In this document: positions 1-29,643 of the stretch, piece by piece
Position numbering within the stretch: position 1 is the first letter of the stretch
How the letters are laid out: each line of letters begins with the position of its first letter
NCBI GenBank assembly: GCA_903877385.1
Contig: CAIRDP010000048.1
Span: 1-36,227 of the forward strand
Source: an uncultured Bacteroidales bacterium
GTDB taxonomy: Bacteria; Bacteroidota; Bacteroidia; Bacteroidales; FEN-979
Reading direction: 5' to 3'
DNA length: 36,227 nt
Made by a program: the position numbers and the translations under genes
Notes under the pieces: generated by a model
What the model was told of the DNA's origin: nothing
What the model saw: only the letters and a program-made list of their open reading frames with translations
Databases searched by the model: none

Positions 1-132
1 AGGCCGGGATTTTGCCGCCGGCTTCCTTCAGATTCCTTCTCGCGAAGGACACCCTTGCCTTGAGCTAATGATTCCTACTGCCAAGTTCATAGCGGACTTT
101 CACCGCCAAGTTATCGCCCATGCCGGGCGCAC
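1..132 (-). mobile_element. 5' end of a class C group II intron (partial, runs off the left edge)
   Basis: Read on the minus strand, the segment starts at 132 with GTGCGCCCGGCATGGG, followed by GGTGAAAGTCC, CAAGGGTGTCC and GGAATCTGAAGGAAGC. These match what I recall of the 5' part (domain I) of group IIC introns such as the Oceanobacillus iheyensis intron, including the GUGYG 5' boundary. The intron would begin at 132 and continue leftward out of the window, so the reverse transcriptase/maturase and domains V-VI cannot be seen. It lies directly behind the terminator of the sus operon, in the same orientation, which is the known target preference of class C introns. The family identification rests on memory of the consensus, but several separated blocks agree. 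Confidence 0.85.
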
Positions 133-1251: not shown

Positions 1252-3477
1252 TTAATATCCGGGATTTTGCTTGAGGTTTGGATTTGCAGATACGTCGGAT
1301 GAAGGGATCGGGAAGATGTTGTAGAAAGCAGGAACGGAGATACCGTTTTTAGCTCCGCCTTTCCATGGCCATAAATAGGTGCCGGTGCTGAACTGTCCAT
1401 AACGGATCAGGTCGGTTCTGCGCACGCATTCCCAATATAATTCGCGACCTCTTTCGTCAAGGATGAATTGAAGCGTAAGCTCGGCTGCATTGATATCGCC
1501 GGCCTGGTCTCCATATGCCCTTTCACGAATTGCATTAACAAGCGCCAGGGCCTGTGAAGTGGATCCACCGCCACCTCTAAGGACAGCTTCGGCATACATC
1601 AGGTAAACATCGGCCAACCTGAATAAGGGGAAGTCTGTATCGGGATAGGATAAACTGGAGCCTGCTGTCCCTGCTCTGGTGATGTTCTTGAACTTGGTTA
1701 CGGCATAACCGTCGGTGAATGTACCAACATCCTTGATATCAAGTGCCTGTCCGCTGGTATAAAACATGGCTCTTGTATCATAGCTGTTCCTTACGATAGT
1801 ATAAGTATAGTCGGGATAACCCAGTTTCATTGTTACAATATAATTGCCGTCTTTCGGGATAACAATGTTATCACCACCGGCTTTAAGGATCCCGGTTTTG
1901 CTTCCGTTGTCTCCGTAATTAACATCCCATGCCCCGTTAGCGCGGAACTTCAATCCTTTGGTGGCAAGCAGATCAACTTTTACGGTCCAGGTTTTTGAAG
2001 CTGTATCATAAGCCATTGGAGTATCGGTGCTCCCTCCTCCCGGGGTTGCATCACCTATTACAGCCCAGGTGGTTTTCAACAGGGTGTAGGTAGGAGGTGT
2101 TGCCGACATGTCAACGTTGACTTTATAATAGCCTGCATCGGCTACCTGGAGGTTGCTTCCCGGGTGTACAAGTACTCCCGAGTTACCGCTTGAAGATGTA
2201 TCTCCATAGTCGTTACCATCCCATGCCGGGGTTGTTGAGAATTTAAACTGGGTGCCGCCTGTGGCGAAATTCAGGTAACCTTCATATTTCTGGTCGCTGT
2301 TAACAGAAGCCAGCACGGTGAAGGTATTGGCAGGATTCCATCCCTGGTAAGATCCCGGGCAATAAAGCAGGGGATATGATTTTGCACTCCTGGGAGGTGT
2401 TGGTGAACTCCATAATCCATCGGTCAGGTTCGGGTAAAACAATTGAACAATGGGTTTTGTTGTACGTGTTCCTCCCCAGCTGTTGGCTGTTCCGTAATCG
2501 GCAGGTTTCATAGTTCCGCCAATGGCAGCAGAGATAATGAAATTAGTTCCGCCATAGGTTTGGGTATGAGTTCCGTCATATTCAATCGGGAAGATGATTT
2601 CGTCAGTGCATAAATTATTATCGGCTAGGAAAAGGTCCTGGTAATTAGGTTCCAGGGTATATCCTGCTCCGATGATATTATTACAATAAGTAATACAATC
2701 GGTATACCTGGGGGTGCCTGTGTACACTTCGGCATTCAGGTAGAGTTTTGCAAGAAGGGTCCAAACAGCTGCTTTGTCGGCGCGTCCATATTCGTTGTAA
2801 CGGGCATTGATCATCAAAGGTTCAATTGCCTTAAGTTCCGACTCAACATAAGTAAAGAGATCGGCACGACTTTTCTGGGGAGGGAAGAATGTCCCGGGAA
2901 CATCGTTTTCAGTAACAAAAGGCACATTTCCAAAGAGGTCAATGGCATGCCAGTAACTCAGAGCCCTGAGGAATCTGGCTTCGGTACGGTAAATCTGGCA
3001 ATTGATCTTATCCTGCCCTACAATTCCGCGTGAATCCAGTTTGCTGTCCTGCGACTCCCTGATAAATTCATTGCAGAGGCTTACCTGGTAAAAAATCCTG
3101 TAATACATGGCGGCAATGAAAACGTCGCCTGAGCCCCAGTCCTGGGAATGAAAGTTATGGACCGTTTGGTCATTCCAGGCGATCACCGCTTCATCAGTGG
3201 GAAGTTCCTGGTGGTACCAATAGCCGCGGAGGTATTCTCCGAAACCTTCGTCAATACCGGCGATATCGGGATTCCCTGCGGGTCCCTGCTGGCCGGAGAC
3301 TGAAAGGCCTGCGTAGCATTTTGCCAAAACCTGCTTGTACCCGGCAGCATTGATATATGCATTTTCCGGGGTATACAAAGTGGGATTGATAGGCTTTGTA
3401 TTCAAATCCTTGGTGCAGGAGGCGAGAAACAGCGTTAATGCTGCTACTATGAATGTTATTTTAAATATTCTTTTCAT
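1252..3477 (-). CDS. susD: SusD/RagB-family glycan-binding lipoprotein with an inserted SusE/F module pair
   Basis: A 741-residue lid subunit of the SusCD importer, anchored as a lipoprotein (signal peptide ending LASC, Cys21). The SusD fold is recognisable from residues 22-362 (helical TPR-like region with the RTEARFLRALSYWHAIDLFGN segment shape) and from 564-741 (DTRAMFYTSGQ, FPLFRLADVYLMYAEA, ILDERGREL, and the NP-x-LKQNPGY end). Between them, residues about 363-563 are two SusE/SusF-type modules. Removing them leaves about 541 residues, the usual SusD size. The reading frame is continuous and SusD motifs are intact on both sides, so this is a true domain insertion and not a frameshift or a fused neighbour. 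It lies 17 nt after susC. An extra glycan-binding role for the insert is inferred. Confidence 0.9.
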   Translation of the reverse strand: MKRIFKITFIVAALTLFLASCTKDLNTKPINPTLYTPENAYINAAGYKQVLAKCYAGLSVSGQQGPAGNPDIAGIDEGFGEYLRGYWYHQELPTDEAVIAWNDQTVHNFHSQDWGSGDVFIAAMYYRIFYQVSLCNEFIRESQDSKLDSRGIVGQDKINCQIYRTEARFLRALSYWHAIDLFGNVPFVTENDVPGTFFPPQKSRADLFTYVESELKAIEPLMINARYNEYGRADKAAVWTLLAKLYLNAEVYTGTPRYTDCITYCNNIIGAGYTLEPNYQDLFLADNNLCTDEIIFPIEYDGTHTQTYGGTNFIISAAIGGTMKPADYGTANSWGGTRTTKPIVQLFYPNLTDGLWSSPTPPRSAKSYPLLYCPGSYQGWNPANTFTVLASVNSDQKYEGYLNFATGGTQFKFSTTPAWDGNDYGDTSSSGNSGVLVHPGSNLQVADAGYYKVNVDMSATPPTYTLLKTTWAVIGDATPGGGSTDTPMAYDTASKTWTVKVDLLATKGLKFRANGAWDVNYGDNGSKTGILKAGGDNIVIPKDGNYIVTMKLGYPDYTYTIVRNSYDTRAMFYTSGQALDIKDVGTFTDGYAVTKFKNITRAGTAGSSLSYPDTDFPLFRLADVYLMYAEAVLRGGGGSTSQALALVNAIRERAYGDQAGDINAAELTLQFILDERGRELYWECVRRTDLIRYGQFSTGTYLWPWKGGAKNGISVPAFYNIFPIPSSDVSANPNLKQNPGY
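1789..2391 (-). repeat. SusE/SusF two-module block inserted in SusD
   Basis: Codons about 363-563 of the SusD homologue. It begins at YCPGSYQGWNP and ends shortly before DTRAMFYTSGQ, where the normal SusD sequence resumes. It carries both modules in the same order as SusE codons 158-345, including the conserved W-D-x-NYGD motif in the second module. Confidence 0.8.
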
Positions 3478-3494: not shown

Positions 3495-6485
3495 TTATAA
3501 CGTAAGATTAACACCTATAACATACACCCTTGATCTGGGATACATATTGTTATCAATACCCAGGGTTGATCCGAGGTTCACTTCGGGATCAAGACCCTTG
3601 TACTTGGTGATAGTGAAAACATTGTTCACAGTAAAGGAAACGCGCAGGTTCAATGTATTTTTTACCAGGTTCCCGAAATTATATGCAAGGGAGAGGTAGT
3701 CCAGTTTAAAGAACGAAGCGTTCTGTACATAATAATCAGAAAGATACTGATTGTTATAAAAATTAGTGTTTGTAACCGAAGTTGTGAGGTTTCCAAGCCA
3801 TGGTCCGTTGCCCCTGTAAATGTTGGCATAAACTCCCATATTGGCTTCAACATTATTATACATATAGTTACCCACATCAGCATGGCCGCTGGCGGCTAAT
3901 GTCCACTTTTTGTAAGAGAGCTTGGTATTTACACCAAAGGTTGCCGTAGGATTCGGGCTCTTGTATGCATACCTGTCGGCATCGGTAATTTTCCCGTCGC
4001 CATTGCGGTCAACATATAAGCCTTCGACCGGGTTCCCGTTTTTATCATATACCTGCTGGTATACATAAAATGAATTGATCGGGTTCCCTACCCTGTCGAT
4101 CTGTACAGTGTTGCCAACGCCTCCGGCGATTCCCCCTACCATAACGCCAGGGTAGTTGGGATCATCGGAAATATTCAGCTTTGTGATCTTATTCTTGTAT
4201 GTTGTTGCATTGGCACCGATATCCCAGATCCAGTCCTTGGTTACAATGGGCTTAACGTCAAGCATGAACTCAAAGCCCTGGTTCTGCATGCTTCCTACGT
4301 TGGTCCAAACATAATTTGAAAGATTTGTTCCGGCAGGTACGGGAATGAAGTTCAGCATATTGGTTGTGTTCTTATAAAAATAATCAGCCGAAGCGGTGAT
4401 CCTGTCTTTCAGGAAGCCAAGGTCTATTCCAACGTTTGAAGTGGCGGTTGTTTCCCATTTAATATTGGGGTCATAAGCGTTGGGCCTTAAAGTCTTTAAC
4501 CATACATTACCAAACTGGTACTGTGTGAAGCCGTCGCTGAGCGCGTAAATTGGAAGGTAAGGATACCAGTTGGCGGATATATCCTGCTGACCGGTTTCTC
4601 CCCAGCCAACCCTGAGTTTCAACTGTGAGACAACTTTTGAATCCCTGAGGAACTTCTCGTCGTTGATTTTCCATCCAAGGGCTACCGATGGGAATAATCC
4701 CCAGCGGTTGCTGCTTGAGAATCTCGACGAACCGTCATCACGCAAGGTAGCAGTTAAAAGATACCTGTTGAAAAGGGTGTAATTTAAACGTCCGTAAAAC
4801 GAAACAAGATAGTATTCCTGTTTTACAACAATCGTATTGGCGTGTGCAGTGTCCTGTGGAACATTGTTATTGTAACTATTGTTGTTTACCCAGAAATGCT
4901 GCCATGAATAACCTGCCATAGCGTCGAACTTGCTGTGAATGCTTTTAACGTCTTTCACATAATTCAGGTAAAAGTCGAGCAGGCTGTTCTTCTTGGTCTG
5001 GTCATATGTATTGTCAACACCATGGTCGTAATAATTCCAGGTTGCATAAGTGGGCACATAATCCTCACCATTGCTTTTTGAATAGTCCATCCCAAGGTTG
5101 AGGTTAACCCTCATATCGGGGAAGAAATGCAGCTTATAATCGAACTGGATATTACCAAGAAACCTGTTTACCGAGGAGGTGTTCTGGGTTTCATTGAGAC
5201 GGGCAACAGGGTTTGTTGTTGCAGTAGTTACAGGAAGGTTACTGGGCTGCAACCATGCAAAGTAATAGTTATATAAGCCGTATTTGCCGCTTCCATTAAC
5301 AGTCTGGGTCGGGTCAAATGCAACGGCGTCGCCGATTGCTGACTGGTCCGCAAACCTGTTCTTCTCGTTCATGTACTTGGCATTGACATTAATTTTCAGG
5401 TAATTCTTGAAGAATGTCGGGTTAAGTGTTACTCCAAGCGTGGTCCTCCTCATATTGTCGGTAAGCAGAGTACCGTCCTGGTACGAATAACCTAAAGAAA
5501 CGCGGTAAGGCATTGTTGCCACAGCGCCTGTAATTGCCAGGTTATGGTCAGTTCCGAGAGCCGTCCGGTATATTTCTTTCTGCCAGTTTGTATTGCTTGT
5601 TCCAAGCAGGGTTGTATCTATATTCTGGAGTCCCTGTCTTGCCCTTGACAATACCAGCGCCCGGTAATCATCTCCGCTATATACGCCAATAGTTTTGGGG
5701 ACAGTGGAAATGGATAAATTCCCGGTATACTCAAGACCGATTTTCTTAGATCCCTGAACCCCTTTCTTGGTGGTGATAATGATAACACCGTTGGATGCAC
5801 GTGAACCGTAGATTGCGGTTGCGGAAGCATCTTTCAGAATGGTGTAGGTTTCAATATCATCAGGGTTTAGCATCCCAAGGGTACTGCGTGCCCCGGAAGT
5901 AGATGCATTGTCGATGGCAACACCATCAATGACAAGCAAAGGATCGTTATTTGCATTGATTGAGGAACCGCCCCTGATACGAATGATAGCATCACCGCCC
6001 GGGCCTCCGCCTGTGGTCGTCACCTGCACACCCGCGATCTTACCAATGATAAGTTGCTGGGGGGACTGGATAGCTCCCTGGTTAAAATCCTTACGGTCGA
6101 TTGCAGCAACGGATCCTGTAGCATCAGATTTTTTTACCGTTCCGTAACCGATCACGACAACTTCGTTAAGACTTTTCGTACCCACCGAGAGGGAAACATC
6201 AAGTTTTTGCTGTCCGGTAATTGTAATTTCCTGTGTCTGATAACCAACATAGGAAAAAACAAGCACCGCATCCTTCTTTACCTTGACAGAGTATTTTCCG
6301 TCCGCATCGGTAACAGTACCCGTTGTTGTATTTTTAACAACGATAGTTACCCCCGGGAGTAAACCTCCATCTGTCGCATCCGTTACTTTACCTGAGATTG
6401 TGATCTCCTGTGCAGAAACCATAGAGGCTGATGCCAGGGCGAAGAAAATGATCAGGTAACGCAACCAAAGTACACGTTTCTTCAT
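3495..6485 (-). CDS. susC: SusC/RagA-family TonB-dependent outer-membrane transporter
   Basis: A 996-residue barrel that imports oligosaccharide with SusD, powered by TonB. A signal peptide (ending near SMVSAQ) leads to a carboxypeptidase-regulatory-like domain (about 28-100: ITISGKVTDATDGGLLPGV, then DADGKYSV and FSYVGY). A typical TonB-box-like stretch NEVVVIGYGTVKKSDATGSV follows. The plug domain (about 115-235) contains the RIRGGSSINANNDPLLVIDG segment and the TILKDASATAIYGSRASNGV signature. The rest is a 22-strand-type barrel ending in the aromatic/hydrophobic strand RVYVIGVNLTL. Length is normal. It is the first gene of the operon. The alpha-glucan substrate is inferred from the divergent amylase and from SusE. 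Confidence 0.95.
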   Translation of the reverse strand: MKKRVLWLRYLIIFFALASASMVSAQEITISGKVTDATDGGLLPGVTIVVKNTTTGTVTDADGKYSVKVKKDAVLVFSYVGYQTQEITITGQQKLDVSLSVGTKSLNEVVVIGYGTVKKSDATGSVAAIDRKDFNQGAIQSPQQLIIGKIAGVQVTTTGGGPGGDAIIRIRGGSSINANNDPLLVIDGVAIDNASTSGARSTLGMLNPDDIETYTILKDASATAIYGSRASNGVIIITTKKGVQGSKKIGLEYTGNLSISTVPKTIGVYSGDDYRALVLSRARQGLQNIDTTLLGTSNTNWQKEIYRTALGTDHNLAITGAVATMPYRVSLGYSYQDGTLLTDNMRRTTLGVTLNPTFFKNYLKINVNAKYMNEKNRFADQSAIGDAVAFDPTQTVNGSGKYGLYNYYFAWLQPSNLPVTTATTNPVARLNETQNTSSVNRFLGNIQFDYKLHFFPDMRVNLNLGMDYSKSNGEDYVPTYATWNYYDHGVDNTYDQTKKNSLLDFYLNYVKDVKSIHSKFDAMAGYSWQHFWVNNNSYNNNVPQDTAHANTIVVKQEYYLVSFYGRLNYTLFNRYLLTATLRDDGSSRFSSSNRWGLFPSVALGWKINDEKFLRDSKVVSQLKLRVGWGETGQQDISANWYPYLPIYALSDGFTQYQFGNVWLKTLRPNAYDPNIKWETTATSNVGIDLGFLKDRITASADYFYKNTTNMLNFIPVPAGTNLSNYVWTNVGSMQNQGFEFMLDVKPIVTKDWIWDIGANATTYKNKITKLNISDDPNYPGVMVGGIAGGVGNTVQIDRVGNPINSFYVYQQVYDKNGNPVEGLYVDRNGDGKITDADRYAYKSPNPTATFGVNTKLSYKKWTLAASGHADVGNYMYNNVEANMGVYANIYRGNGPWLGNLTTSVTNTNFYNNQYLSDYYVQNASFFKLDYLSLAYNFGNLVKNTLNLRVSFTVNNVFTITKYKGLDPEVNLGSTLGIDNNMYPRSRVYVIGVNLTL

Positions 6486-6587
6486 AGAGTTAAAATTAAA
6501 GTGTTAGTTTTCCGTTAATTGTATCTTCTTTTGTATTTTATAATATGTATTGCCGTGCAGAATTAATAAAAAATTTCTTACCCTCAA

Positions 6588-6595
6588 CAAATTTA
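6588..6595 (-). promoter_or_regulatory. Predicted -7 element of the susC promoter
   Basis: On the minus strand this reads TAAATTTG, a perfect match to the Bacteroidota -7 consensus TAnnTTTG. It leaves an untranslated leader of roughly 95 nt before susC. No clear TTTG is seen at the -33 position, only a T-rich stretch near 6613-6616. The 261-bp divergent region is very AT-rich and also holds a short inverted repeat, TTTTG-ATG-CAAAA (6632-6644), between the two promoters, which could be an operator. Confidence 0.55.
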
Positions 6596-6718
6596 ACCAT
6601 GTTTTTTTTGTTAAAACCCTTAAAGCACTGATTTTGATGCAAAAAAATTACTCAAAAACTTTTCCGTGTAAAATCGATTCCCCAACAAGCTGAGGGGTTT
6701 CAGATTTCATCCTTTTAT

Positions 6719-6726
6719 TACATTTG
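6719..6726 (+). promoter_or_regulatory. Predicted -7 element of the amylase promoter
   Basis: The site reads TACATTTG, matching TAnnTTTG, 20 nt before the amylase start codon. This gives a very short leader. A weak -33 candidate, TTTC, lies at 6698-6701. With the susC promoter it forms a divergent pair, which suggests co-regulation of transport and hydrolysis. Confidence 0.55.
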
Positions 6727-6746
6727 CAATAATAAATTCCACCAAA

Positions 6747-9590
6747 ATGAAAAGGCTTCTAATTTATTCAGGCATTCTCCTGTTTTGCACCCTGTTAACC
6801 AGGACAGCTTCATCCCAGACCATTGTAACAGTACCGGTGTATCCTACCGACCTCGACTCCTGTACGGTTACCTTCGATGCCACCAAAGGCAATGCCGGTC
6901 TGATGAATGTAAATCCTCCCATTTATGCACATACAGGCGTTATCACGAACCTGAGCACTTCGGGGAGTGACTGGAGATATGTATTGGCAGCCTGGGATCA
7001 GAATATCCCCAAAGCTTTGATGACCAGCCTTGGCAATAATTTATACAGGATCAAGCTGCTTCCCAGCATCAGGGCATTTTACGGGGTACCAGCCGGTGAA
7101 ATAATTCAGCAACTGGCTTTTGTTTTCAGGAATTCCGACGGGTCCAAGAGCGGCCGCGAAGCCAATGGCGGGGACATTTACGCCAACGTATATCCTACTG
7201 CCACAAGCGTCACGATCAACCTTCCTAAAAATAAAAACCTTTTCGTGTCAGAGCTGAATCCTATTCCCGTGAATGCAACCAGCCCCCTGGCCGATACGAT
7301 GAAATTATACCTCAACGGGACTCTCATAAAAACCATTGCCGGCCATATGATCACCGATACCATCCTGGCGAATGGGTTCGGCCGTAACTGGGTAAAACGC
7401 TGGGTCAGGGTCCTGGCCAAGAACGATACGGCTGCAGTTTCCGATTCGTTCTGCTACACCGTGATCCCGGCACCTTCAGTTGCTGCCCTGCCTGCAGGCA
7501 TTAAGCCGGGCATTAACTATGTGGATTCAACTACCGCGGTACTTTGCCTGTATGCCCCTCAAAAAAATTCATGTTTTGCCTTTGGCGATTTCAGCAACTG
7601 GCAACTGGATTCCCTGCATTATATGTTCAAAACCCCAAACGGAAACAGTTTCTGGATACAGCTCCAAAACCTGACCCCACGCAAGGAATACATCTATCAA
7701 TACCTTGTTGACGGCAGCCTCACGACCGCCGACCCTTACTGTGACAAGGTAAGTGATCCCAACGATCAGTATATCGACGCGGCAACCTATCCCGGACTAC
7801 TCCCTTATCCGGCCGATAAAACCAGCGGCATAGCAAGCGTATTGCAAACGGCTCAGTCGCCGTATCCATGGTCCTCGGCGACTTTCACACCACCCGCCAT
7901 CACCGACCTTGTGGTGTACGAACTCCTGATCAGGGATTTCACAAGCCAGCACACTTTTCTCTCGCTGATCGACACCCTGGATTACCTGAAAAACCTCGGC
8001 GTCAATGCAATTGAACTGATGCCTGTCATGGAATTTGAAGGAAACAGCAGCTGGGGTTATAACCCCAATTTTTCATTTGCCGTTGATAAATACTACGGCC
8101 CAAAGAATACAATGAAACAGTTTGTCGAAGCAGCGCATGCCAAAGGATTCGCCGTGATCCTCGATATAGTCTGCAACCATCATTTCGGAACTTCTCCCCT
8201 TGTACAGCTTTACTGGGATTCCCAGAACCAGAGGCCTGCCGCAAACAGCCCGTGGTTCAACCCTATCCCGAAACATCCCTACAATGTCGGTTACGATTTC
8301 AACCACGACAGTCCCGACACCAGGTCTTACATGCTCAGGCTGGTAGAATACTGGTTGCAGGAATACCATACCGACGGATACCGCTTCGACATGTCCAAGG
8401 GTTTTACCCAGGTGAATTCATACCCAGATAATCTTACTCTCTGGGGACAGTACGACCAGGACCGGGTAAACATCCTGAACACTTACGCCGATACCATCTG
8501 GTCGGTAAATCCCAATGCCTATATGATACTGGAGCATTTTGCCGACAACAGCGAGGAAACGGTACTTGCAAATGCCGGGATGATCCCCTGGGGCAATGGG
8601 AACGGCAGTTATAATAACGCCTCCGGCGGATGGACGAGCGGTGTTTCATCCGACCTTTCGTGGGGTTCTTACAAAAACAGGGGATGGTCGAAACCCAACC
8701 TTGTATGGTATATGGAAAGCCATGATGAAGAACGACAGATGTTCGATGATTACAGCGCCGGCAACAGCAGCCAACCGCCATATAATCCAAAGGATACAGC
8801 AACGGCACTGCAGAGGGGAGCCCTCTGCGCAAATTTCTTCTTCAGCATTCCCGGTCCCAAAATGATATGGCAGTTTGGAGAGCTTGGTTACGATTATTCA
8901 ATCAACTATCCTACCGGAACATCCGCCAGCCGGCTTGATCCCAAACCTGTACGCTGGGATTATTATTCCCAGTGGGGAAGGAAATACCTTTACAATGTAT
9001 ACCGCTCGCTTATAGATCTTAAAAAGAACCAGGCCGCGTTCCGCAGCAGTTTATACACCGTAGATCTTACGTCAGCAACAAAAAGGATCACCCTTACCGC
9101 CCCCGGCATGGACGCAGTTGTGCTTGGCAATTTTGATGTGGTTGCCCGGAATGTCGTACCGGGTTTTACGAAAACCGGTATGTGGTATGAATTTTACAGC
9201 GGTGATTCACTGGCTGTAACCAATGTATCAGACCCCCTGGCTTTCATACCCGGAGAATACCGGCTGTACACCACAGTGAAACTGCCCAAACCTGCATATA
9301 CAGGTATCGGCAATCCCGCAGTGCAGCAAGGCACGGATTACAGCTTAAGCGTTTTCCCGAATCCTTCAAGCGGTCCGGTGACTTTTGGGCTTTTTCTTGC
9401 CAAACCCTCTGAAATAAAACTTGTTGTTTATGACTTCAGCGGGAAACCTGCAGGCATAGTCTTCGACGGCAAACTGATGCCGGGAATGCACGATCTCAGC
9501 TGGAATCCCGAAAAGCTCAGCCCGGGAATGTACTTCTATAAACTGGTAAGCCTGGGAGGTACCTCAGGAGGAAAATTCATTATCCTTTAA
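6747..9590 (+). CDS. Secreted GH13 alpha-amylase-family enzyme with T9SS sorting domain
   Basis: A 947-residue exported glycoside hydrolase that probably cuts alpha-1,4 or alpha-1,6 glucans. A signal peptide ends near TASSQ. An N-terminal beta-sandwich domain (about 25-150, with TVTFDATKGNAGL) is followed by a second linker/Ig-like region and a CBM48-like E-set domain (about 250-345). The GH13 barrel (about 385-790) shows region I DIVCNHH (473-479), region II GYRFDMSKG with nucleophile Asp548, region III ILEHF with acid/base Glu596, and region IV MESHDEER with Asp660, so the catalytic triad is complete. Residues 868-947 (VFPNPSSG start, MYFYKLV, then GGKFIIL) are a T9SS type A sorting domain. 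The exact specificity (amylase, neopullulanase or branching-like) cannot be told from motifs alone. Confidence 0.92.
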   Translation: MKRLLIYSGILLFCTLLTRTASSQTIVTVPVYPTDLDSCTVTFDATKGNAGLMNVNPPIYAHTGVITNLSTSGSDWRYVLAAWDQNIPKALMTSLGNNLYRIKLLPSIRAFYGVPAGEIIQQLAFVFRNSDGSKSGREANGGDIYANVYPTATSVTINLPKNKNLFVSELNPIPVNATSPLADTMKLYLNGTLIKTIAGHMITDTILANGFGRNWVKRWVRVLAKNDTAAVSDSFCYTVIPAPSVAALPAGIKPGINYVDSTTAVLCLYAPQKNSCFAFGDFSNWQLDSLHYMFKTPNGNSFWIQLQNLTPRKEYIYQYLVDGSLTTADPYCDKVSDPNDQYIDAATYPGLLPYPADKTSGIASVLQTAQSPYPWSSATFTPPAITDLVVYELLIRDFTSQHTFLSLIDTLDYLKNLGVNAIELMPVMEFEGNSSWGYNPNFSFAVDKYYGPKNTMKQFVEAAHAKGFAVILDIVCNHHFGTSPLVQLYWDSQNQRPAANSPWFNPIPKHPYNVGYDFNHDSPDTRSYMLRLVEYWLQEYHTDGYRFDMSKGFTQVNSYPDNLTLWGQYDQDRVNILNTYADTIWSVNPNAYMILEHFADNSEETVLANAGMIPWGNGNGSYNNASGGWTSGVSSDLSWGSYKNRGWSKPNLVWYMESHDEERQMFDDYSAGNSSQPPYNPKDTATALQRGALCANFFFSIPGPKMIWQFGELGYDYSINYPTGTSASRLDPKPVRWDYYSQWGRKYLYNVYRSLIDLKKNQAAFRSSLYTVDLTSATKRITLTAPGMDAVVLGNFDVVARNVVPGFTKTGMWYEFYSGDSLAVTNVSDPLAFIPGEYRLYTTVKLPKPAYTGIGNPAVQQGTDYSLSVFPNPSSGPVTFGLFLAKPSEIKLVVYDFSGKPAGIVFDGKLMPGMHDLSWNPEKLSPGMYFYKLVSLGGTSGGKFIIL

Positions 9591-11336: not shown

Positions 11337-14015
11337 TTATTTTTTCCATGCTTGGATGTACGCTTCCGAAAACCGGCCCATCCAGGAATTTGAAGCGGTG
11401 TAGCGCCTGAGTATGCTTTGGGGATCGGCATTTTTATAAGCAAGCTTATCCTTTGCGGCAAGTGAAAGGGCCAGCTTCTCCTGGTACATCGAGGACCTGT
11501 CCTCGGGAATCCCCTGAATATGCAGCAATATCATGTATCGCATGGCTTCAACAGGATCATCAGAAGCGATATAATACTCCAGCGCCTGCTCCGTGATGAA
11601 CCGGTTGGATTTCATCATAACATAATCGTAAACAGAGGTAAGGGATATTCCAAAATGATCAATGCGCCTGGATGAATACAGTTTTTCATTGGCTGCCAGC
11701 AACTGCATTCCTCTCTCGTATTCCCCCGCGATCATATTCGTTGTCACCTCCTCCAGGTTATTCTGGTAATCGGCGGCATCCCTGTACTTTTTAACCGAAT
11801 CCTGCATGGCAGTGAGGTTGAAGCTGCAGGCTCCCATATTTCCTGCCTGACGCATGGCATACAGAAGTACCATGACACCCCGGTTAAAGTTATGGATGGC
11901 GAAACACCTGCCGGCCCTTATGTTATATAATTCGAGGCTGTCCTCCATCAGTTCGCAGTTGTGGCTGCCGATCTTTGAGCTGTATAATGCCAATGCCTTT
12001 ATAATATCAGGATCACTTTCCAGTCCCTTGCTCCTTGCAGTTTCCGCTGCCAGCTTTAAAAATCCGCCGGCCGAATCGGATTTGTTGTTCCATATCAGCT
12101 GCTGTTCCCGCGATATACGGTCAAGAAGCCATTGTTTATAGGATTGGTGATACGGGGAGTCGCTGAAAGTATCTTCAGCAATTGAATACGCCGAGGCTAT
12201 TTTCCCTGCCTGCTCAAACTGCAGAATAGCTCTTGAGAACTGCCGCTGGCGGAAATATGCGGCTGCAATTGAATTGATCTTTTTTACCCTGATCACGGCA
12301 ATTAAAGGTGCAAGGGAATCCATGGCCTTGATGTCATGGCTTCCATCCGGCAAATTCTGCCGCTGTGCCGATGCCCGGTCGAAGAATGAGAGCGCGCTGT
12401 CGGCCTGGCTTTGCCTGAGCGCCTTCATGCACCTGGCTGCAAGCCCTTCGATTAAACCTTTCCTGGCCTTTATTTTCATTTCCCCTATATCGGGAGCAAG
12501 AATTTCATACGCCCTTCCCTGGTATGTCACTTCACAGCTGTTCAGGCATTCCAGGGCGTCTGAATAATTCCCCTCTCCCAGAAGCCTGCTGCAGTTCTCG
12601 ATCTGCCCGAGAAATATCGCGCGGTAAACCCTTCGGTAAACCGAATCGGAAGTAATAAATACAGGATATTGTTCCCTGTATTTTTCTGCTTTCTGAAGGT
12701 ATTCCATGGCAAAGCTGGTATTCCCCCCTTCAAGGCTGCTCGAAGCAATTCCCGCATAGGAATTGTAGATCCCGTTAACTGCCTCTGACATCATCCCTTC
12801 CCATCCGTTATGATTTTTTAGATACGGGTTTCCTGCAGCCATGCTGCGGGCATTTTCGATAAGCATGACCGCATCGGAATACTTCCTGGAGCTCATCAGT
12901 GAGGCGGCTTTCTTTTTGTATGCCTTCATCAGGCTTTCCGATGCATACGAAAGGAGAGTGTCGGGCCGGGCGGCAGGGAACATCCTGGCAAGCATGGCCT
13001 GAACAAAATCACTGTCGCTGTCATAAACATGTTTTGAATAATAGGTATTAAGGTAATCAGGGTATATCATTCCCTGGATATCATCCATTAGTGAACTTAA
13101 ACGGATATACCTCATCAGGCTTTCGATAAAATAATCGCTGATGGTATCCAGTGAGCCGTAGCCTGGTAAAGGTCCTGACTTTTCTAATGTTTCGCGGAGG
13201 TTGAAAATGCAGGTCCTCGAAATTTTATAAAGGGCCAGGGTCTTCTCAGAAAGATTTCTCGGATCCCCTCCCCCTTTTATCAGCCGGTTCCCGAAATCCC
13301 TGGAGTTTACCAGGTCAAGTATCCTCACCAGTTCCGAAAGCCTTATATAATTGAAAGGCAGTTGCGGGGGATCCCTCATATCCCTGTTTTGCACTTCGGT
13401 ATCAAGACTGTCAATCATGGCCGCAGAAGCATAATAATCATCGACCAGGTTCTTTTTGGCATAAAATTTTTGCCAGCAGGTTTCGGAATAGTCAAAAGAA
13501 AAATTTCCTGCAATAAGGGTATCCACTGCGGTATCCATGGGGAGCCCGTTAACCCTGAAGGTCAAAGCATTTCCTTTTAGCGGATCTTTCGCGTTAAATT
13601 CGCGTACTGTCAAATTGCCGGTGTCGAGTTTTGTTGAGAACCTGAGTGCGAACCTGAATCCTGATGGCAACAGTACATCGCTCATCGGAAAAGAACGGTA
13701 CTGACAGTATCCCGACAGTCTGAAATCCGAAAAGTTAACAATAGCTGTCCAGTAAGAAGGCTGTTCACTCCGGAGCAGGATCTCATCGGTAAAGTTTACA
13801 GCAAGGTTTACGAATTGCGGAGGTTTCAGAAGATCCCTGGCAAGTTCTTCAAGTATATCGTTGCCGAAGTTGGTTTTCTGGGGGAAATATCCCGTATAAG
13901 GCAGCCTCCAGGTTTGGCGGCTTGCCGAATGCCTGAATGCCTGCTGTGAATATGCAGGCCCTGAAGCCATTAAAAGTAAAGCAAGGGCAATCAACAAAAG
14001 AAAACGCTTATTCAT
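11337..14015 (-). CDS. Large secreted protein of unknown function, probably with helical (TPR-like) repeats
   Basis: An 892-residue protein I do not recognise. It begins with a clear signal peptide (MNKRFLLLIALALLLMASG, cleavage near AYSQ), so it is exported to the periplasm or beyond. No lipobox and no T9SS tail are seen. Residues about 65-200 look beta-rich. From about 220 to the end it is helical, with repeated A-x-x-Y/LLE-x-G-x-Y-x-x-A patterns (for example SSRKYSDAVMLIENA, LLGEGNYSDALECLNSC, FRQRQFSRAILQFEQAG) typical of TPR-like pairs. It is transcribed away from the efflux operon and shares its promoter region. It is convergent with the 9674 gene. An envelope scaffolding or stress role is only a guess from the context. 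Confidence 0.8.
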   Translation of the reverse strand: MNKRFLLLIALALLLMASGPAYSQQAFRHSASRQTWRLPYTGYFPQKTNFGNDILEELARDLLKPPQFVNLAVNFTDEILLRSEQPSYWTAIVNFSDFRLSGYCQYRSFPMSDVLLPSGFRFALRFSTKLDTGNLTVREFNAKDPLKGNALTFRVNGLPMDTAVDTLIAGNFSFDYSETCWQKFYAKKNLVDDYYASAAMIDSLDTEVQNRDMRDPPQLPFNYIRLSELVRILDLVNSRDFGNRLIKGGGDPRNLSEKTLALYKISRTCIFNLRETLEKSGPLPGYGSLDTISDYFIESLMRYIRLSSLMDDIQGMIYPDYLNTYYSKHVYDSDSDFVQAMLARMFPAARPDTLLSYASESLMKAYKKKAASLMSSRKYSDAVMLIENARSMAAGNPYLKNHNGWEGMMSEAVNGIYNSYAGIASSSLEGGNTSFAMEYLQKAEKYREQYPVFITSDSVYRRVYRAIFLGQIENCSRLLGEGNYSDALECLNSCEVTYQGRAYEILAPDIGEMKIKARKGLIEGLAARCMKALRQSQADSALSFFDRASAQRQNLPDGSHDIKAMDSLAPLIAVIRVKKINSIAAAYFRQRQFSRAILQFEQAGKIASAYSIAEDTFSDSPYHQSYKQWLLDRISREQQLIWNNKSDSAGGFLKLAAETARSKGLESDPDIIKALALYSSKIGSHNCELMEDSLELYNIRAGRCFAIHNFNRGVMVLLYAMRQAGNMGACSFNLTAMQDSVKKYRDAADYQNNLEEVTTNMIAGEYERGMQLLAANEKLYSSRRIDHFGISLTSVYDYVMMKSNRFITEQALEYYIASDDPVEAMRYMILLHIQGIPEDRSSMYQEKLALSLAAKDKLAYKNADPQSILRRYTASNSWMGRFSEAYIQAWKK

Positions 14016-21059: not shown

Positions 21060-23297
21060 ATGATCACTTTATCCCGCAATGATATAGAACAGCGTTACCG
21101 CAAGGTTGTGGAAGCCATTTATGAGAGCCACTTCAAATCGGCTCTCGATGATTTATCGCAATGGATTCGTTTTTCAAACAAACAGGAATTCTTTTACCAG
21201 CTCGAAACCCTGGGCGACAATTACAGGACCCTGCTCCGCTATGCGTTTGAAGGGTATAAGGATCCCCAGCAGGAAACAATACTGAAGAGCCTTGCCATAT
21301 CCCTTTTGTCCTTAACCGATGAACTGCAGCAGAGCATGAGGGAACCGCTTTTACCTTTTCATTACAGTGAGAAGCAGAACCTCTTACAGGATCTGGGCCA
21401 AGACCCTGAACAGATCATTGCCGCCATTGAAGACATCTTTCTTCATCGCGAGGTGAATAAGCTCATCGATACCGCAGGTAATATGTCTGAAGAGCCCTCC
21501 GAAGCCCTGCCTGCTGAAATGCTCGATAAATTATTTAAACTGATCTGGCTCACCGAAAAGATCAAAGACCATCATATAAACCTCGCTAGGAGGATCAACC
21601 GTTCGGGAACCATTGAATGGCATGAAAAATCTCTTGTTGTAAGCACCCTCACCCTGAGCCTGCTGAATTATTTTGACCCTCAGAAATTCGTTCTCCTGAT
21701 CGAATTTACCGAGGCCGGCGAAAAACATGTTTGCCAGAGGGCACTTGTTGGCCTGGTGCTTGGACTTATCAAATACGATCGCAGGATCAGGAACTATCCC
21801 GAACTGATAGAAAAGCTGTATTCCCTGAGCAGTGACCAGGATGTCATGAAAAACGTCGAGATCATCCTTCTTCAATTCCTCATGGCAAGGGAAACCGAAA
21901 AGATCAACAGGGAGTTTGAGGAAGAAGTGCTCCCCGATATGAAAAAAATGATGCCCAGGATTGAAGACAAACTTCAACTTGGCGACCAGGCCGATGAAAC
22001 CGATATGGAAGGGAAGAACCCGGGATGGAAAGGAATGGTTGATGAGGTTCCCGGTCTGTTTGAGAAGATCGAGAAATTTTCCAAAATGCAGATGGAAGGC
22101 GGGGATGTTTTCATGAGCACCTTCCAGATGCTTAAACGTTTCGACTTTTTTAACAGGATGTGCAACTGGTTCCTTCCTTTTTACAGGCAGAATCCCGAAG
22201 CAGGTAAGCTGTTTCCCGGGAATGACGACCTGAACAGGAGGTTGTTCGACAGCTTAGAGCATGCTTTTTATATCTGTAATTCCGACAAATACTCTTTTGT
22301 ACTGAATTTCCAGGCTATTCCGGTTCAGCAACGCAACCTCATCGTTACAAATTTCGAAGCTGAACTGGCCCAGATGAAGGAAATGGCCACGGAGGAACAG
22401 ATGCTGGATCAGTCCATAGGGGAAAATGCCATCATCATACAATATATACAGGACCTATACAGGTTCTTTAAACTCTTCCCAAACCGGGGTGAATTTGAGG
22501 ATATTTTCAGAAGAAAGATCTCATTCGGGGACCTTTATTTTTACAGGACTTTTTTCGAACAGGAAAAATTCAGTTTGAAACTGGCTGAATTTTATTTCGA
22601 GAAATGCCATTATTATGAGGCAATCGATCTTTATGAATACCTCTGCAGCAAAGGGAAGCCCTCGGGAGAATTCTACGAGAAGATCGCATTCAGTTACCAG
22701 AAATCGGGCAGGTACAGGAAAGCTGTGGAATATTATAAAAAGGCTGAACTTTTCGATTCCGACCATTTATGGATACTTAAGAAACTTGCATGGTGCTATA
22801 TCCACCTGAAGGACTTTCAGAGTGCATTGGGATATTTCAAAGAAGCCATGGAACTGCAGCCTGGCGACCAGTCGGTGCAGACCCAGCTTGCCCAATGCTA
22901 TCTGAACCTGAGGGATTATGAGAAAGCTTCCCAGGTTTATGCCCAGCTTCTTTTTTATTCCCCAAACAACCTGAAATATCTGAGGCCCGCGGCATACTGT
23001 GACTTTGTTACAGGAAAACTCAGCCAGGCAGAATCAGGTTACAGGGAACTGCTGGCCCTGTCGGAAAAGCCTTCGGCCTACGATTACATGAACGCCGGAC
23101 ATGTGTTTTTATGCAAGGGTGAGAGAAAAGCCGCGCTTGAATATTATACTCAAAGCCTCTCATTAAAGCAGTTCACCGAAACGGAATTCATGGATGCATT
23201 TGATGAAGATGTTGCACATTTGCTCAGGTACGGCATATTGAAGACCGAAATTCCGCTAATTAAAGATTATTTGTCGTTTCAGACCGAAAGATCGTGA
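21060..23297 (+). CDS. Large cytoplasmic TPR-repeat protein
   Basis: A 745-residue protein with no signal peptide or membrane segment. The first 500 residues are helical and charged, with an acidic/lysine-rich stretch around 290-340, and I cannot assign them to a family. From about 510 onward there are at least five tetratricopeptide repeats (for example YEAIDLYEYLCSKGKPSGEF, RKAVEYYKKAELFDSD, QSALGYFKEAMELQPGD, YEKASQVYAQLLFYSPN, KAALEYYTQSLSLKQ). TPRs bind partner proteins. The next gene overlaps it by 4 nt, so the secreted caspase-like protein is translationally coupled. A cytoplasmic TPR protein coupled to an exported partner suggests an assembly or signalling role, but this is inference. 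Confidence 0.8.
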   Translation: MITLSRNDIEQRYRKVVEAIYESHFKSALDDLSQWIRFSNKQEFFYQLETLGDNYRTLLRYAFEGYKDPQQETILKSLAISLLSLTDELQQSMREPLLPFHYSEKQNLLQDLGQDPEQIIAAIEDIFLHREVNKLIDTAGNMSEEPSEALPAEMLDKLFKLIWLTEKIKDHHINLARRINRSGTIEWHEKSLVVSTLTLSLLNYFDPQKFVLLIEFTEAGEKHVCQRALVGLVLGLIKYDRRIRNYPELIEKLYSLSSDQDVMKNVEIILLQFLMARETEKINREFEEEVLPDMKKMMPRIEDKLQLGDQADETDMEGKNPGWKGMVDEVPGLFEKIEKFSKMQMEGGDVFMSTFQMLKRFDFFNRMCNWFLPFYRQNPEAGKLFPGNDDLNRRLFDSLEHAFYICNSDKYSFVLNFQAIPVQQRNLIVTNFEAELAQMKEMATEEQMLDQSIGENAIIIQYIQDLYRFFKLFPNRGEFEDIFRRKISFGDLYFYRTFFEQEKFSLKLAEFYFEKCHYYEAIDLYEYLCSKGKPSGEFYEKIAFSYQKSGRYRKAVEYYKKAELFDSDHLWILKKLAWCYIHLKDFQSALGYFKEAMELQPGDQSVQTQLAQCYLNLRDYEKASQVYAQLLFYSPNNLKYLRPAAYCDFVTGKLSQAESGYRELLALSEKPSAYDYMNAGHVFLCKGERKAALEYYTQSLSLKQFTETEFMDAFDEDVAHLLRYGILKTEIPLIKDYLSFQTERS

Positions 23298-24604
23298 GGA
23301 ATAAGGTAAGGAAATGTTTATTGCATACGTTTGGCACACTGTTTATCCTGCAGATGGCATCCGCTCTTAACCGGACATCGGCCCAGTCAAGCTTTTATAT
23401 ATCAGGATCAGAGTTTCACTGGACCAGGGGGGCGACTCCTCCTGTCGTTCAGATGAAGATCGGCAGGGAACTCTCCGAAAACAATTTCCACCCCTCGCCC
23501 GACAGCAGCAAAGCCGATCTTGTTATCAGGGTAAAATGCAATTCATACTTTAACGGCCAGACTCCCTATTTTTTCTTTGCCTGCCTGGATGCCAGCCTGA
23601 GCGTTTATGACAAGAACAAAGGTAGGCTCATTTATTCAAATGACATCCGCAGAATAAAAGGAGGAAGTACTTCTCTCGAACTGGCCGATGAAAAAGTTTA
23701 TGCAAATGCCTCCCAGATCATTGCCGATACACTTTTGCGTTTCATCTATTTCTATAAGACCGGGAAGCAATTGACCGCTTCGGCCAAACAAGTTGAATTT
23801 GAAGCCTTTTGCGATGCCGACCGGGATATCCCCGACATGGCCGCTGAACGGAAGAACACTTATGTTCTGATCATTGCCAATGATGCATACAGCCCCATGC
23901 AAACAGCCCGGTGTTTCTTCGATTCTGTTGATTATCATGCCCGCGATGCCAGGGTTTTCAGGGAATATGCCATCCACACACTGGGCATACCTGCAAAAAA
24001 TGTGAGTATGACCATCAATGCAAAGTCTTTCGAAATACGAAGGGAACTCATCAAACTCTCATCTTATTCCAAGGGAGTGGATGGAAATGCTGAGCTGATT
24101 TTTTATTATGCCGGTTATGGGCTGATCGATGAGAAAACCCTTGAACCTTACATTTTACCGGTCGACATTGAAAACGACGACCCGAAATTCATTGTCAGGA
24201 TAAGCGACCTTTATAAAATGCTGCAGGAGGATGCTTCGAGGCGAATCAGCATCCTGCTCGAATGTTCTTTCCAGTTTGATGCCCTGAAACCAAAACCGGC
24301 AAAAGCCAGATTGCAGAAAATCCAGCTGAACTACCCGAATGTTCCCGCCAATGCGGTTTTCATGGCAGCGGCAGCTCCAACTCAAAAAGCCTGGTCAAAC
24401 AAGGAAGCCGGGCATGGCTTATTCACACTTGCCTTGCTGAATAAGTTAAAAGAAACCAGCGGGAAAGCCAGCCTCAAAGAGCTGTCCGATTTTATCATCA
24501 AGGACGTACGCTCGGCTTCCCTGAAAATGAAACTGAAAGAACAGGTCCCCCATTCCTCATTCGGGTCCTCACTCACAAAAAGCCTTTCCGTACTGAAATT
24601 TTAA
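23294..24604 (+). CDS. Secreted caspase-fold protein (peptidase C14-like) lacking the catalytic His
   Basis: A 436-residue exported protein starting at a GTG that overlaps the previous stop codon. A basic-hydrophobic signal peptide ends near RTSAQS. Residues 32-170 are an uncharacterised domain. Residues about 188-435 match the caspase/metacaspase fold: TYVLIIANDAY (strand 1), HARDARVFREY, GIPAKNVSMT, AELIFYYAGYGLIDE, YILPVDI, SILLECS and HGLFTLALLNKL. The active-site His of the usual YYSGHG is Tyr275 here (AGYG), by codon TAT. The Cys324 is kept, in LLEC. That resembles the pseudo-caspases of bacteria with Tyr at this place, so the protein may bind but not cut, unless another residue substitutes. 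Confidence 0.75.
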   Translation: MRNKVRKCLLHTFGTLFILQMASALNRTSAQSSFYISGSEFHWTRGATPPVVQMKIGRELSENNFHPSPDSSKADLVIRVKCNSYFNGQTPYFFFACLDASLSVYDKNKGRLIYSNDIRRIKGGSTSLELADEKVYANASQIIADTLLRFIYFYKTGKQLTASAKQVEFEAFCDADRDIPDMAAERKNTYVLIIANDAYSPMQTARCFFDSVDYHARDARVFREYAIHTLGIPAKNVSMTINAKSFEIRRELIKLSSYSKGVDGNAELIFYYAGYGLIDEKTLEPYILPVDIENDDPKFIVRISDLYKMLQEDASRRISILLECSFQFDALKPKPAKARLQKIQLNYPNVPANAVFMAAAAPTQKAWSNKEAGHGLFTLALLNKLKETSGKASLKELSDFIIKDVRSASLKMKLKEQVPHSSFGSSLTKSLSVLKF

Positions 24605-27912: not shown

Positions 27913-27930
27913 AGCCAAATGCCATAGCCT

Positions 27931-29643
27931 ATGAAAAAAGGAGAAAAACAGGAAGCAGATAGTTTACGCCAAAAAGCAGAGTTTTTGCTGAACAAAAAGT
28001 CCGTTGAAACAAATCAGCAGTTTTCTCATAACGACACCCTGAAACTTATTCATGAACTGGAAGTGCACCAGATAGAGCTGGAATTGCAGAATGAGGAGCT
28101 AAGGCTGGCAAAAGAACAGGCCGAACTTTCTGTTGACAAATATGCTGAATTATACGATTTTGCGCCTTCCGGTTACTTTACACTTTCACAAAGAGGTGAA
28201 ATCATTGAGTTAAACCTGAAGGCCGCTCAAATGTTGGGAAAAGATCGACAAAATTTAATAAATCATCCGTTCGGCTTCTTTATTTCTGACTTGTCAAAAC
28301 CAGTCTTCAGTTTCTTTCTCCAAAAAGTGTTTTTCGGCCAAACCACCGAAACCTGTGAAATAACCCTTTTACCGGGCCTTAATCTGCCGGTTTATCTTCA
28401 CCTTTCGGGCATCGCCGAAAACAGGAAAGATAACTGCCTGATAACTGCAGTGGATATTACCGAACGTAAGCAAGCTGAACAGGAATTGCTCATAGCCAAA
28501 GAACATGCCGAAGAAAGCGACCATCTTAAATCTGCCTTCCTCGCCAATATGAGTCATGAAATCAGAACACCCATGAACGGCGTTCTGGGATTTGCCGAAT
28601 TGCTTAAAGAACCAAAATTATCGGGTGAGGAACAGAAAAAGTACATCGACATTATCCAGAGAAGCGGAACCCGCTTGCTGGGCATTATCAATGATATTAT
28701 TGACATCTCGAAAATAGAAGCCGGTCAAATGGGAGCAAGCTTTTCAGAGACGAATGTCAATGAGAAGATTGAAGAAACATATAATTTCTTCAAACAACAG
28801 ACAAATCAGAAAGGGATTCATTTTTCCTGTAAAACCCCCTTGCCATCAATACAATCTGTAATCAAAACAGATGGTGAAAAATTATCTGCCATTCTCACCA
28901 ACCTGGTTAACAATGCCATTAAATTCACTCATTCAGGCTCCATAGAATTTGGATATGTACAAAGGGACGGGCTCCTTGAATTTTATGTAAAGGATACCGG
29001 CATTGGAATAAACCGGGCTCAAAAGGAAATTATTTTTGAACGGTTCAGGCAAGGTGGCAGGCAGCTTGCCGAAAACATAGAAGGTACCGGCCTGGGATTA
29101 TCCATTTCTAAAGCTTATGTGGAGATGATGGGTGGAAAAATCAAGGTTGAAAGTGTAGAGGGCCAGGGCTCAGAATTTTATTTCACCATACCATACGTTA
29201 CTCAAAACCAAGGTCAAGTCGATAATCCGGATTTTCTTCAGGCAATGGAGGGATCAGCCCAGGTTAACAACCTGAAAATACTTATTGCCGAAGACGATGA
29301 AACCTCGGATTTTCTCATCACCAACATACTCAGCAAAAACAGCCATGTTATTTTACATGCGGCAACCGGGGCCGAAACAATAGAAAAATGCCGTAGTAAT
29401 CCCGACCTGGACCTGGTCCTGATGGATATCAGGATGCCTGATATCAGTGGGTTAGAAGCTACCGAGCAAATCCGTCAATTCAATAAAAGCGTCATCATCA
29501 TTGCTCAAACAGCCTTTGCTTTGTCAGGCGACAGGGCAAAGGCGACAAAGTCAGGCTGTAATGATTATATTTCAAAACCCATTAGCAGGGATGAATTAAA
29601 GGCATTAATTCAAAAACACTTCAGGGTAAAAGCTGCCGGTTAA
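27931..29643 (+). CDS. Hybrid histidine kinase (PAS-HisKA-HATPase-receiver)
   Basis: A 570-residue cytoplasmic kinase. An N-terminal helical/coiled segment (1-70) with HELEVHQIELELQNEELRLA leads to a PAS domain (about 70-178, ending ITAVDITERK). The HisKA domain has the phospho-acceptor His209 in NMSHEIRTPMN. The ATPase domain has the N box LTNLVNNAIKF (Asn324, Asn327), DTGIGI and GTGLGLSISK. The C-terminal receiver (about 448-566) has the acidic pair in AEDDE, Asp499 in LMDIRMPD, and Lys549 in ISKP. No transmembrane segment. It has no output domain, so it likely passes the phosphate on or is read by another protein. It is the likely partner of the CheB-CheR-PAS protein upstream. Confidence 0.93.
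   Translation: MKKGEKQEADSLRQKAEFLLNKKSVETNQQFSHNDTLKLIHELEVHQIELELQNEELRLAKEQAELSVDKYAELYDFAPSGYFTLSQRGEIIELNLKAAQMLGKDRQNLINHPFGFFISDLSKPVFSFFLQKVFFGQTTETCEITLLPGLNLPVYLHLSGIAENRKDNCLITAVDITERKQAEQELLIAKEHAEESDHLKSAFLANMSHEIRTPMNGVLGFAELLKEPKLSGEEQKKYIDIIQRSGTRLLGIINDIIDISKIEAGQMGASFSETNVNEKIEETYNFFKQQTNQKGIHFSCKTPLPSIQSVIKTDGEKLSAILTNLVNNAIKFTHSGSIEFGYVQRDGLLEFYVKDTGIGINRAQKEIIFERFRQGGRQLAENIEGTGLGLSISKAYVEMMGGKIKVESVEGQGSEFYFTIPYVTQNQGQVDNPDFLQAMEGSAQVNNLKILIAEDDETSDFLITNILSKNSHVILHAATGAETIEKCRSNPDLDLVLMDIRMPDISGLEATEQIRQFNKSVIIIAQTAFALSGDRAKATKSGCNDYISKPISRDELKALIQKHFRVKAAG

Follow-up and report, generated by a model that had tools for sequence, protein, structure and literature searches.

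How is the work of holding and importing starch divided at the bacterial surface when the lid of the transporter itself carries modules of the kind that hold the polymer? According to the Sus paradigm, import through SusCD and polymer holding by SusE and SusF fall to separate proteins, and natural lids bearing between zero and three such modules bear directly on this division of work. One of these lids is encoded in a 36,227-nucleotide stretch of DNA from an uncultured Bacteroidales bacterium (contig CAIRDP010000048.1 of assembly GCA_903877385.1), which we analysed as a whole and refer to as the window. Its susD gene (positions 1252-3477, minus strand) encodes a SusD-family protein interrupted by two modules of the SusE/SusF kind. 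The arrangement is real and conserved, and it places a known design principle, modules carried in a loop, in a host for which we found no report in the open-access literature, the SusD lid. From the fused gene, the predicted fold of its parts, their conservation under purifying selection, the operon context and the variable number of modules found at one site, we argue that the protein is likely the lid of a SusCD transporter for starch or a related alpha-glucan, equipped with an additional built-in grip on alpha-glucan.

The open reading frame starts at an ATG and continues through 741 residues with zero internal stops. The initial annotation, made from the sequence alone, had given these coordinates and this length, both of which hold; the strand is the minus strand. 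The gene sits in a susC-susD-susE operon order, with a divergent gene of glycoside hydrolase (GH) family 13 alongside:

1252-3477, minus strand, including the stop codon: susD, encoding a 741-residue lipoprotein with two inserted X25/SusE-F-type modules
2437-3477, minus strand: N-terminal part of the SusD core, residues 1-347, with the signal peptide and Cys21, helices, and the sugar-site residues D76, R84, W101, Y308 and W334
1780-2436, minus strand: the insert, residues 348-566
2074-2376, minus strand: insert module 1, about residues 368-468 (limits approximate), with W380 and W419
1783-2073, minus strand: insert module 2, about residues 469-565 (limits approximate), with W517 and a Gly at residue 482
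1252-1779, minus strand: C-terminal part of the SusD core, residues 567-741, and the stop codon
187-1230, minus strand: susE, encoding the SusE N-terminal domain together with a module pair of the same type, which shares 47% identity with the insert
3495-6485, minus strand: susC, a TonB-dependent transporter gene immediately upstream of susD (TIGR04056, E-value 3.2e-233)
6747-9590, plus strand: divergent GH13 alpha-amylase gene beyond susC, with a weak C-terminal sorting-domain match below the Pfam cut-off

The window protein belongs to the SusD family by its SusD_RagB domain, its fold, its lipobox and its operon. The Pfam model SusD_RagB matches with an E-value of 6.3e-37 (128.3 bits against a gathering threshold of 23.1), best over residues 561-741, and the lipobox reads LASC, with a Cys21 that is invariant among 57 aligned proteins. 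The NCBIfam 'exception' model for SusD, NF033071, matches in two stretches, the better one over residues 1-353 (E-value 4.1e-137), and its 457.8 bits stay below the cut-off of 725, so that by the rule of NCBI the protein is a SusD homologue outside SusD proper. The Pfam model SusD-like_3, which describes the N-terminal part, also stays below its threshold in the window protein (22.9 bits against 27); it is passed by six of the seven relatives tested, the exception being the one at locus L065.

The insert groups with SusE/SusF modules. Pfam SusF_SusE matches it in two stretches, best over residues 378-460 (E-value 9.6e-18, 65.5 bits against a gathering threshold of 27.5), and BLAST aligns it over 207 columns, at 47% identity, with the two modules encoded by the neighbouring susE. 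The Pfam model X25_BaPul_like scores 16.5 bits in the window, below its threshold of 27, which relatives at L059 and L113 pass. The SusE N-terminal domain (PF14292), which Pfam finds in the neighbouring SusE, has no match in the 741-residue protein. Searched as a single sequence against PDB sequences, the insert returned nothing convincing (best E-value 0.21); a profile of the aligned inserts returned as its best match BT3088 (SGBPdex), a surface glycan-binding protein (SGBP) for dextran, at 8.6e-7.

The point of insertion is well defined. The closest SusD in the PDB, 3jys, aligns with the window protein in two pieces, residues 39-347 and 566-741, and SusD of Bacteroides thetaiotaomicron (B. 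theta) likewise aligns in two. Three insert-less orthologues from the same family (L021, L022 and L023), whose cores are about 70% identical to that of the window, have only 3-4 residues between the equivalents of residues 347 and 567, which places the junction 13 residues past the conserved binding-site Trp W334. The insert of about 200 residues that the initial annotation had drawn between residues 363 and 563 is thus present, with limits set slightly too narrow: it spans 219 residues, of which about 20 form a lead-in and the rest two modules of about 100 residues apiece. The loop at this place varies in length even in plain SusDs, since it measures 3-10 residues in 43 of 50 insert-less SusDs and 14-46 in the other seven, 13 in 3jys and at least 33 in B. 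theta SusD 3ck7.

Structure prediction suggests that the SusD core folds around the insert and that both parts fold. AlphaFold2 (AF2) modelled the whole protein from 57 aligned sequences, the window's own together with fetched ones, with a mean predicted local distance difference test (pLDDT) of 89.6 and a predicted template modelling score (pTM) of 0.77; low confidence marked residues 21-40, where the signal peptide ends, an early loop at residues 61-80, and the lead-in, whose blocks over 351-370 scored 70-74. With Foldseek, this model aligns to 3jys over 722 alignment columns (E-value 6.2e-37, template modelling (TM) score by target 0.90) and to the maltoheptaose-bound SusD 3ck9_B over 706 (TM by target 0.84). 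The initial annotation had described SusD sequence intact on both sides of two SusE/SusF modules and had proposed to check folding across the join; the model and the matches of more than 700 columns agree with that description. The insert modelled alone from a 29-row alignment reached a pLDDT of 88.7 and a pTM of 0.83, and its only PDB structure matches at E ≤ 1e-3 (5e-6 to 4e-5) are of the X25/SusE/SusF kind: 7rpy (Sca5 X25-2), 4fe9 (SusF), 4fem (SusE with alpha-cyclodextrin) and 4fch (SusE with maltoheptaose). The TM-scores by query of these matches are low (0.34-0.53), and therefore the angle between the two modules probably differs from that in the known structures or is predicted poorly.

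Homologues with the same insert, whose existence had been put forward as a form of support, are common. Among 61 related genomes, that of the window included, 53 contain some match at E ≤ 0.001 and 17 a match over essentially residues 1-741; these 17 comprise all eight genomes of the genus (the window's own and seven others), seven more of the family and two from other families of the order. Together with a scan of named genomes, for which the best 80 of 410 relatives were kept, we collected 113 loci, 107 of which have a SusD core that could be classified (L002, L003, L004, L054, L063 and L064 were excluded). Automated calls on the 107 cores gave 50 with zero, 11 with one, 45 with two and one with three modules; L057, which has a shortened N-terminal part, was reassigned from one to two. 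After removal of six identical sequences, 101 cores share the same junction and carry zero (49), one (10), two (41) or three (1) modules there, proportions that are biased, since the sequences were collected for their resemblance to a protein with an insert. When the class was sampled evenly (395 genomes, that of the window among them), a close SusD (E ≤ 1e-60) turned up in 77 genomes, for which match ranges indicate five two-module proteins, the window's own included, and two one-module proteins, a few partial frames being unreadable. On plasmids the gene has no near-identity match, and viral contigs yielded zero confirmed relatives.

Two-module carriers include Bacteroidales metagenome-assembled genomes (MAGs), Lentimicrobiaceae, MAGs of Prolixibacteraceae and Saprospiraceae, and the isolate Neolewinella aurantiaca SSH13. 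Carriers of a single module include Flavobacteriales (Flavobacteriaceae, such as a Polaribacter MAG and Aureibaculum flavum A20, and Flavobacteriales bacterium ALC-1), a Saprospiraceae MAG and two Balneolaceae, Gracilimonas amylolytica LA399 and an Aliifodinibius MAG. By profile score, the two Balneolaceae inserts correspond to module 1 (about 94 versus 34-46 bits) and the other eight to module 2; the single module of L101 has no SusF_SusE match in Pfam and was detected only with our own module profile. The three-module protein, from a Prolixibacteraceae MAG, has the order module 1, module 2, module 2. At five flavobacterial loci (L085, L086, L094, L101 and L112), the SusE-position proteins are SusF-like, with 431-449 residues and three module matches; the SusD of these loci carries one module in four cases and none in L112.

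The residues that bear on sugar binding are retained in the core and, with exceptions discussed below, in the insert. For B. theta SusD we take the site to consist of D73, R81, W96, W98, N101, Y296 and W320, which we placed by hand on the alignment. For D76, R84, W101 and W334 of the window, the number of cores with the same residue is 100 of 101 in each case, and an aromatic residue fills position 308 equally often, so the lid's own sugar site appears intact. Among 29 aligned inserts, Trp occupies position 380 in 28, position 419 in 27, position 482 in 26 and position 517 in 28. Within the genus, the insert is under purifying selection, judging from codon comparisons: the ratio of nonsynonymous to synonymous substitution rates (dN/dS) could be computed for the insert in 21 of 28 genus pairs, the other seven being saturated, and lies there at 0.083-0.187, compared with 0.051-0.131 for the SusD core in 28 of 28; these figures are rough because synonymous differences are large.

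How would such a lid work? The SusCD lid operates by a pedal bin mechanism (PMC7782687). In the reading that we favour, the loop bearing the insert would be exposed at the surface of the docked lid, as its variable length and the lower model confidence at the N-side lead-in suggest. By retaining a chain of starch or glycogen at the SusC mouth, the modules would increase avidity and the local concentration of substrate, and the lid's own site would receive chain ends or products of the amylase from them. Polymer capture, normally the job of the separate SusE and SusF lipoproteins, would thereby be coupled to the transporter, in line with the altered sugar capture that the initial annotation had proposed. 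Since relatives carry zero, one, two or three modules at the same spot, the lid probably takes hold of starch for the pump unaided. A model for the pair is offered by Sas20/Sca5, whose two tandem X25 modules close in a clamshell-like manner on maltoheptaose with four Trp, Sas20d2 having a Kd of 0.61 μM; single modules of Sca5 do not bind, and those of SusF each do so at about 300 μM (PMC9112005). Judged by their spacing, the four Trp positions of the insert may be equivalent to those of this clamshell.

Several observations weigh against this proposal. In the core, the counterpart of B. theta W96 is Ile in the window and in 76 of 101 cores, and that of N101 is Asp in the window and in all 101. 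All four insert Trp are present in 26 of 29 inserts, and the window is itself among the three exceptions: its module 2 has Gly at residue 482 (nucleotides 2032-2034, minus strand), where 26 inserts have Trp. Two of the four are missing in L061 and all four in L065. The latter is a Saprospiraceae SusD (5137-7344 of its locus) with a strongly diverged insert of two-module length, in which the SusF_SusE match of Pfam is gone at 0.01. If a module binds only together with a partner, as in Sca5, strong binding by one-module lids is difficult to account for, although SusF modules do bind singly. The AF2 models are of single chains and do not give the orientation of the domains. Finally, most insert-bearing loci still encode a module-bearing SusE; the insert is therefore unneeded to supply glucan binding as such, a capacity that the system did not newly gain with it.

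These points lend most to the idea that the inserted modules act as a docking element or spacer that keeps the outer-membrane complex together by contacting SusE, the amylase or another SusD, glucan binding being secondary or lost. Binding would then be redundant wherever the SusE-position gene keeps its modules, as it does in most insert-bearing loci, the Trp losses would be tolerable (one of four in the window, two in L061, four in L065), and elsewhere SusD, an SGBP and an enzyme are united in one utilisome (PMC7618045). A pure spacer has no need of the four Trp that 26 of the 29 aligned inserts retain, however, and a module number ranging from zero to three suits modular binding better than a fixed interface. 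We consider this role rather unlikely.

The modules could instead bind another glycan, such as a dextran-like alpha-1,6-glucan or a galactan, at a locus that is not a starch system. The dextran SGBP found with the insert profile points this way, as does a GH53 gene, not an amylase, that follows the insert-bearing susCDE of Neolewinella aurantiaca (L059, 8699-10129). This last case counts against the starch reading as well, and the substrate may therefore not be starch everywhere, being another glycan or a mixture at some loci. By contrast, the structural matches of the insert are binders of starch or maltooligosaccharides, the closest SusD model and chains are those of starch SusD, and GH13 genes adjoin several loci, that of the window included. 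Ten neighbouring proteins picked by hand from nine other loci comprise five GH13 proteins, a GH127-like protein, a glycosidase with a weak amylo-alpha-1,6-glucosidase match, the GH53, a beta-lactamase-type protein and a tRNA methyltransferase. On balance, a dedicated non-starch ligand seems distinctly improbable to us.

Where did the modules come from? A quick tree of the 101 cores, computed with the insert removed, requires 10 changes for the presence or absence of an insert and 12 for the number of modules. In a first quick tree of 113 module pairs, 39 of the 41 rows labelled SusD fell together, with L039 and L062 placed among SusE; this tree contained a long branch (L095) and a row labelled as SusE that is a truncated SusD (L054). 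Without L095 and with L054 relabelled, 41 of 42 SusD pairs, L062 included, lie on one side of a branch with a Shimodaira-Hasegawa approximate likelihood ratio test (SH-aLRT) support of 98, and the labels need two changes. The sole SusD pair outside is L039, which groups with SusE pairs from two loci, its own and L068, the latter having an insert-less SusD. Holding 40 pairs together (all except L039 and L062) gave a likelihood 32.7 above that of the free tree, the quick search not being exhaustive; because the constrained tree beat the free one, the placement of L062 is unsettled. A constraint of all 42 SusD pairs as one clade was not rejected (approximately unbiased test, p-AU 0.30). The two-module inserts thus appear to form nearly one lineage, apart from SusE.

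This tree bears on the view that the insert is a recent product of gene conversion from the adjacent susE, neutral or transient and with no selected role. The identity of 47% to the neighbouring SusE pair, the many close relatives without an insert and the grouping of L039 would fit such an event. Set against them are the separation of the SusD inserts other than L039, which Bacteroidales and Saprospiraceae share, from SusE pairs, and the low dN/dS of the insert in the genus; we regard this view as highly improbable. As the general case, a recent copy of the local susE is ruled out by the split of 41 of the 42 SusD pairs from the SusE pairs, L039 excepted. Nor is relocation of modules from SusE to SusD the rule: among nine SusE-position genes that lack a full module match, seven still match SusF_SusE at E ≤ 0.01, six of them above the gathering threshold, and there is no such match in L056 and L077. 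A chimera of susD and susE produced by assembly or binning, the artefact that the initial annotation had named as a possible refutation, is refuted and has practically no chance of being correct: the genome is a draft of 67 contigs and this contig ends 186 bases behind susE, within a group II intron, but the same junctions recur in the 17 genomes and in many further assemblies, the isolate Neolewinella aurantiaca has them too, and susE is still present next door.

The single modules have a history of their own. In the module-2 tree, seven of the eight single modules belong to a 13-row set (support 97) whose other six rows are all flavobacterial SusE-position modules, with L086 outside; the Balneolaceae singles are nearest to one another and to Balneolaceae SusE modules, without a well-supported set. 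Constraint tests by module, from which long rows were dropped (138 of 152 rows kept for module 2 and 110 of 117 for module 1), did not reject holding all SusD modules together (p-AU 0.07 and 0.44, respectively). The trees suggest repeated capture of single modules into one loop as a more natural reading than a single origin; because the one-clade constraint was not rejected, this is suggested rather than demonstrated. It is plausible, and we propose it tentatively, that the loop is a socket into which X25 modules of susE were plugged independently at least two to three times, and that their number tunes the lid to the length or granularity of the polymer, so that starch would be caught and held without SusE. 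The lineages would be the two-module inserts of Bacteroidales and Saprospiraceae, the module-2 singles of Flavobacteriaceae, the module-1 singles of Balneolaceae and the third module of the Prolixibacteraceae MAG.

How far does the window protein resemble known systems? With B. theta SusD (3ck7-3ckc) and 3jys of Bacteroides vulgatus it shares the core fold, the D, R, W98-type and W320-type residues of the sugar site, and a strong sequence match on both flanks of the insert; their chains have 527 and 499 residues, respectively, and at the insertion site they are far shorter than the window protein with its 219 inserted residues. The B. theta SusE and SusF structures (4fem, 4fch and 4fe9) contain a tandem of the same kind of module, to which the adjacent susE adds a homologous pair, but there the modules belong to a separate lipoprotein, whereas those of the window interrupt the lid and come without the SusE N-terminal domain. 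The Sca5/Sas20 protein of Ruminococcus bromii (7rpy) provides the first-ranked structural match by E-value, with a tandem X25 pair and, presumably, four Trp at comparable spacing. It differs in being a Gram-positive cell-surface amylosome protein outside any transporter, and the TM-score over both modules is low (0.34), the angle between them being different or poorly predicted.

Modules within a loop of a Sus-type protein have precedents in SusG, which carries carbohydrate-binding module (CBM) family 58 within its catalytic domain, and in GH10 xylanases of the Xyn10C type, which carry a tandem CBM4 (PMC11267923, PMC7848910). Removal of CBM58 lowers the activity of SusG on insoluble substrate and raises it on soluble substrate (PMC11267923). 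The hosts in these cases are enzymes, whereas the host in the window is a transporter lid. A study of marine alpha-glucan SusDs used a site-proximal loop of about 17 residues to group them; the part of its text available to us mentions no inserted module (PMC11093988). In the open-access literature, with subscription papers and preprints outside our scope, we found no description of SusE/F or X25 modules inside a SusD; the architectures of Pfam or InterPro may list the combination.

Whether SusCD forms a stable complex with SusE and SusF in the starch system or cooperates with them transiently is debated (PMC7618045). Cores that are about 70% identical, with and without modules, constitute a ready-made natural comparison for this question, and the arrangement is common enough to be studied through such pairs. 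The junction also marks a tolerated insertion site in SusD, at which engineers could add new polymer affinities to SusCD transporters.

The same module pair also occurs outside Sus proteins in this genome. On another contig (C19; locus L003, 1513-3375, minus strand), a 621-residue Fib_succ_major protein with an internal sorting-domain match has it as its C-terminal part, with 47% identity to the insert of the SusD. In the window, the group II intron piece behind susE (1-49, minus strand; Rfam group-II-D1D4-3, 39.8 bits, model positions 1-49 of 170) is truncated by the contig end, and it is possibly the reason why the contig stops there. Farther along, an open reading frame of 892 residues (11337-14015, minus strand) has zero Pfam matches at 0.01. 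The region 21060-24604 encodes a TPR protein whose gene overlaps by four bases with the next, that of a caspase-domain (Peptidase_C14) protein, and the region 25003-29643 encodes a CheB-CheR-PAS fusion followed by a PAS hybrid histidine kinase with a receiver domain.

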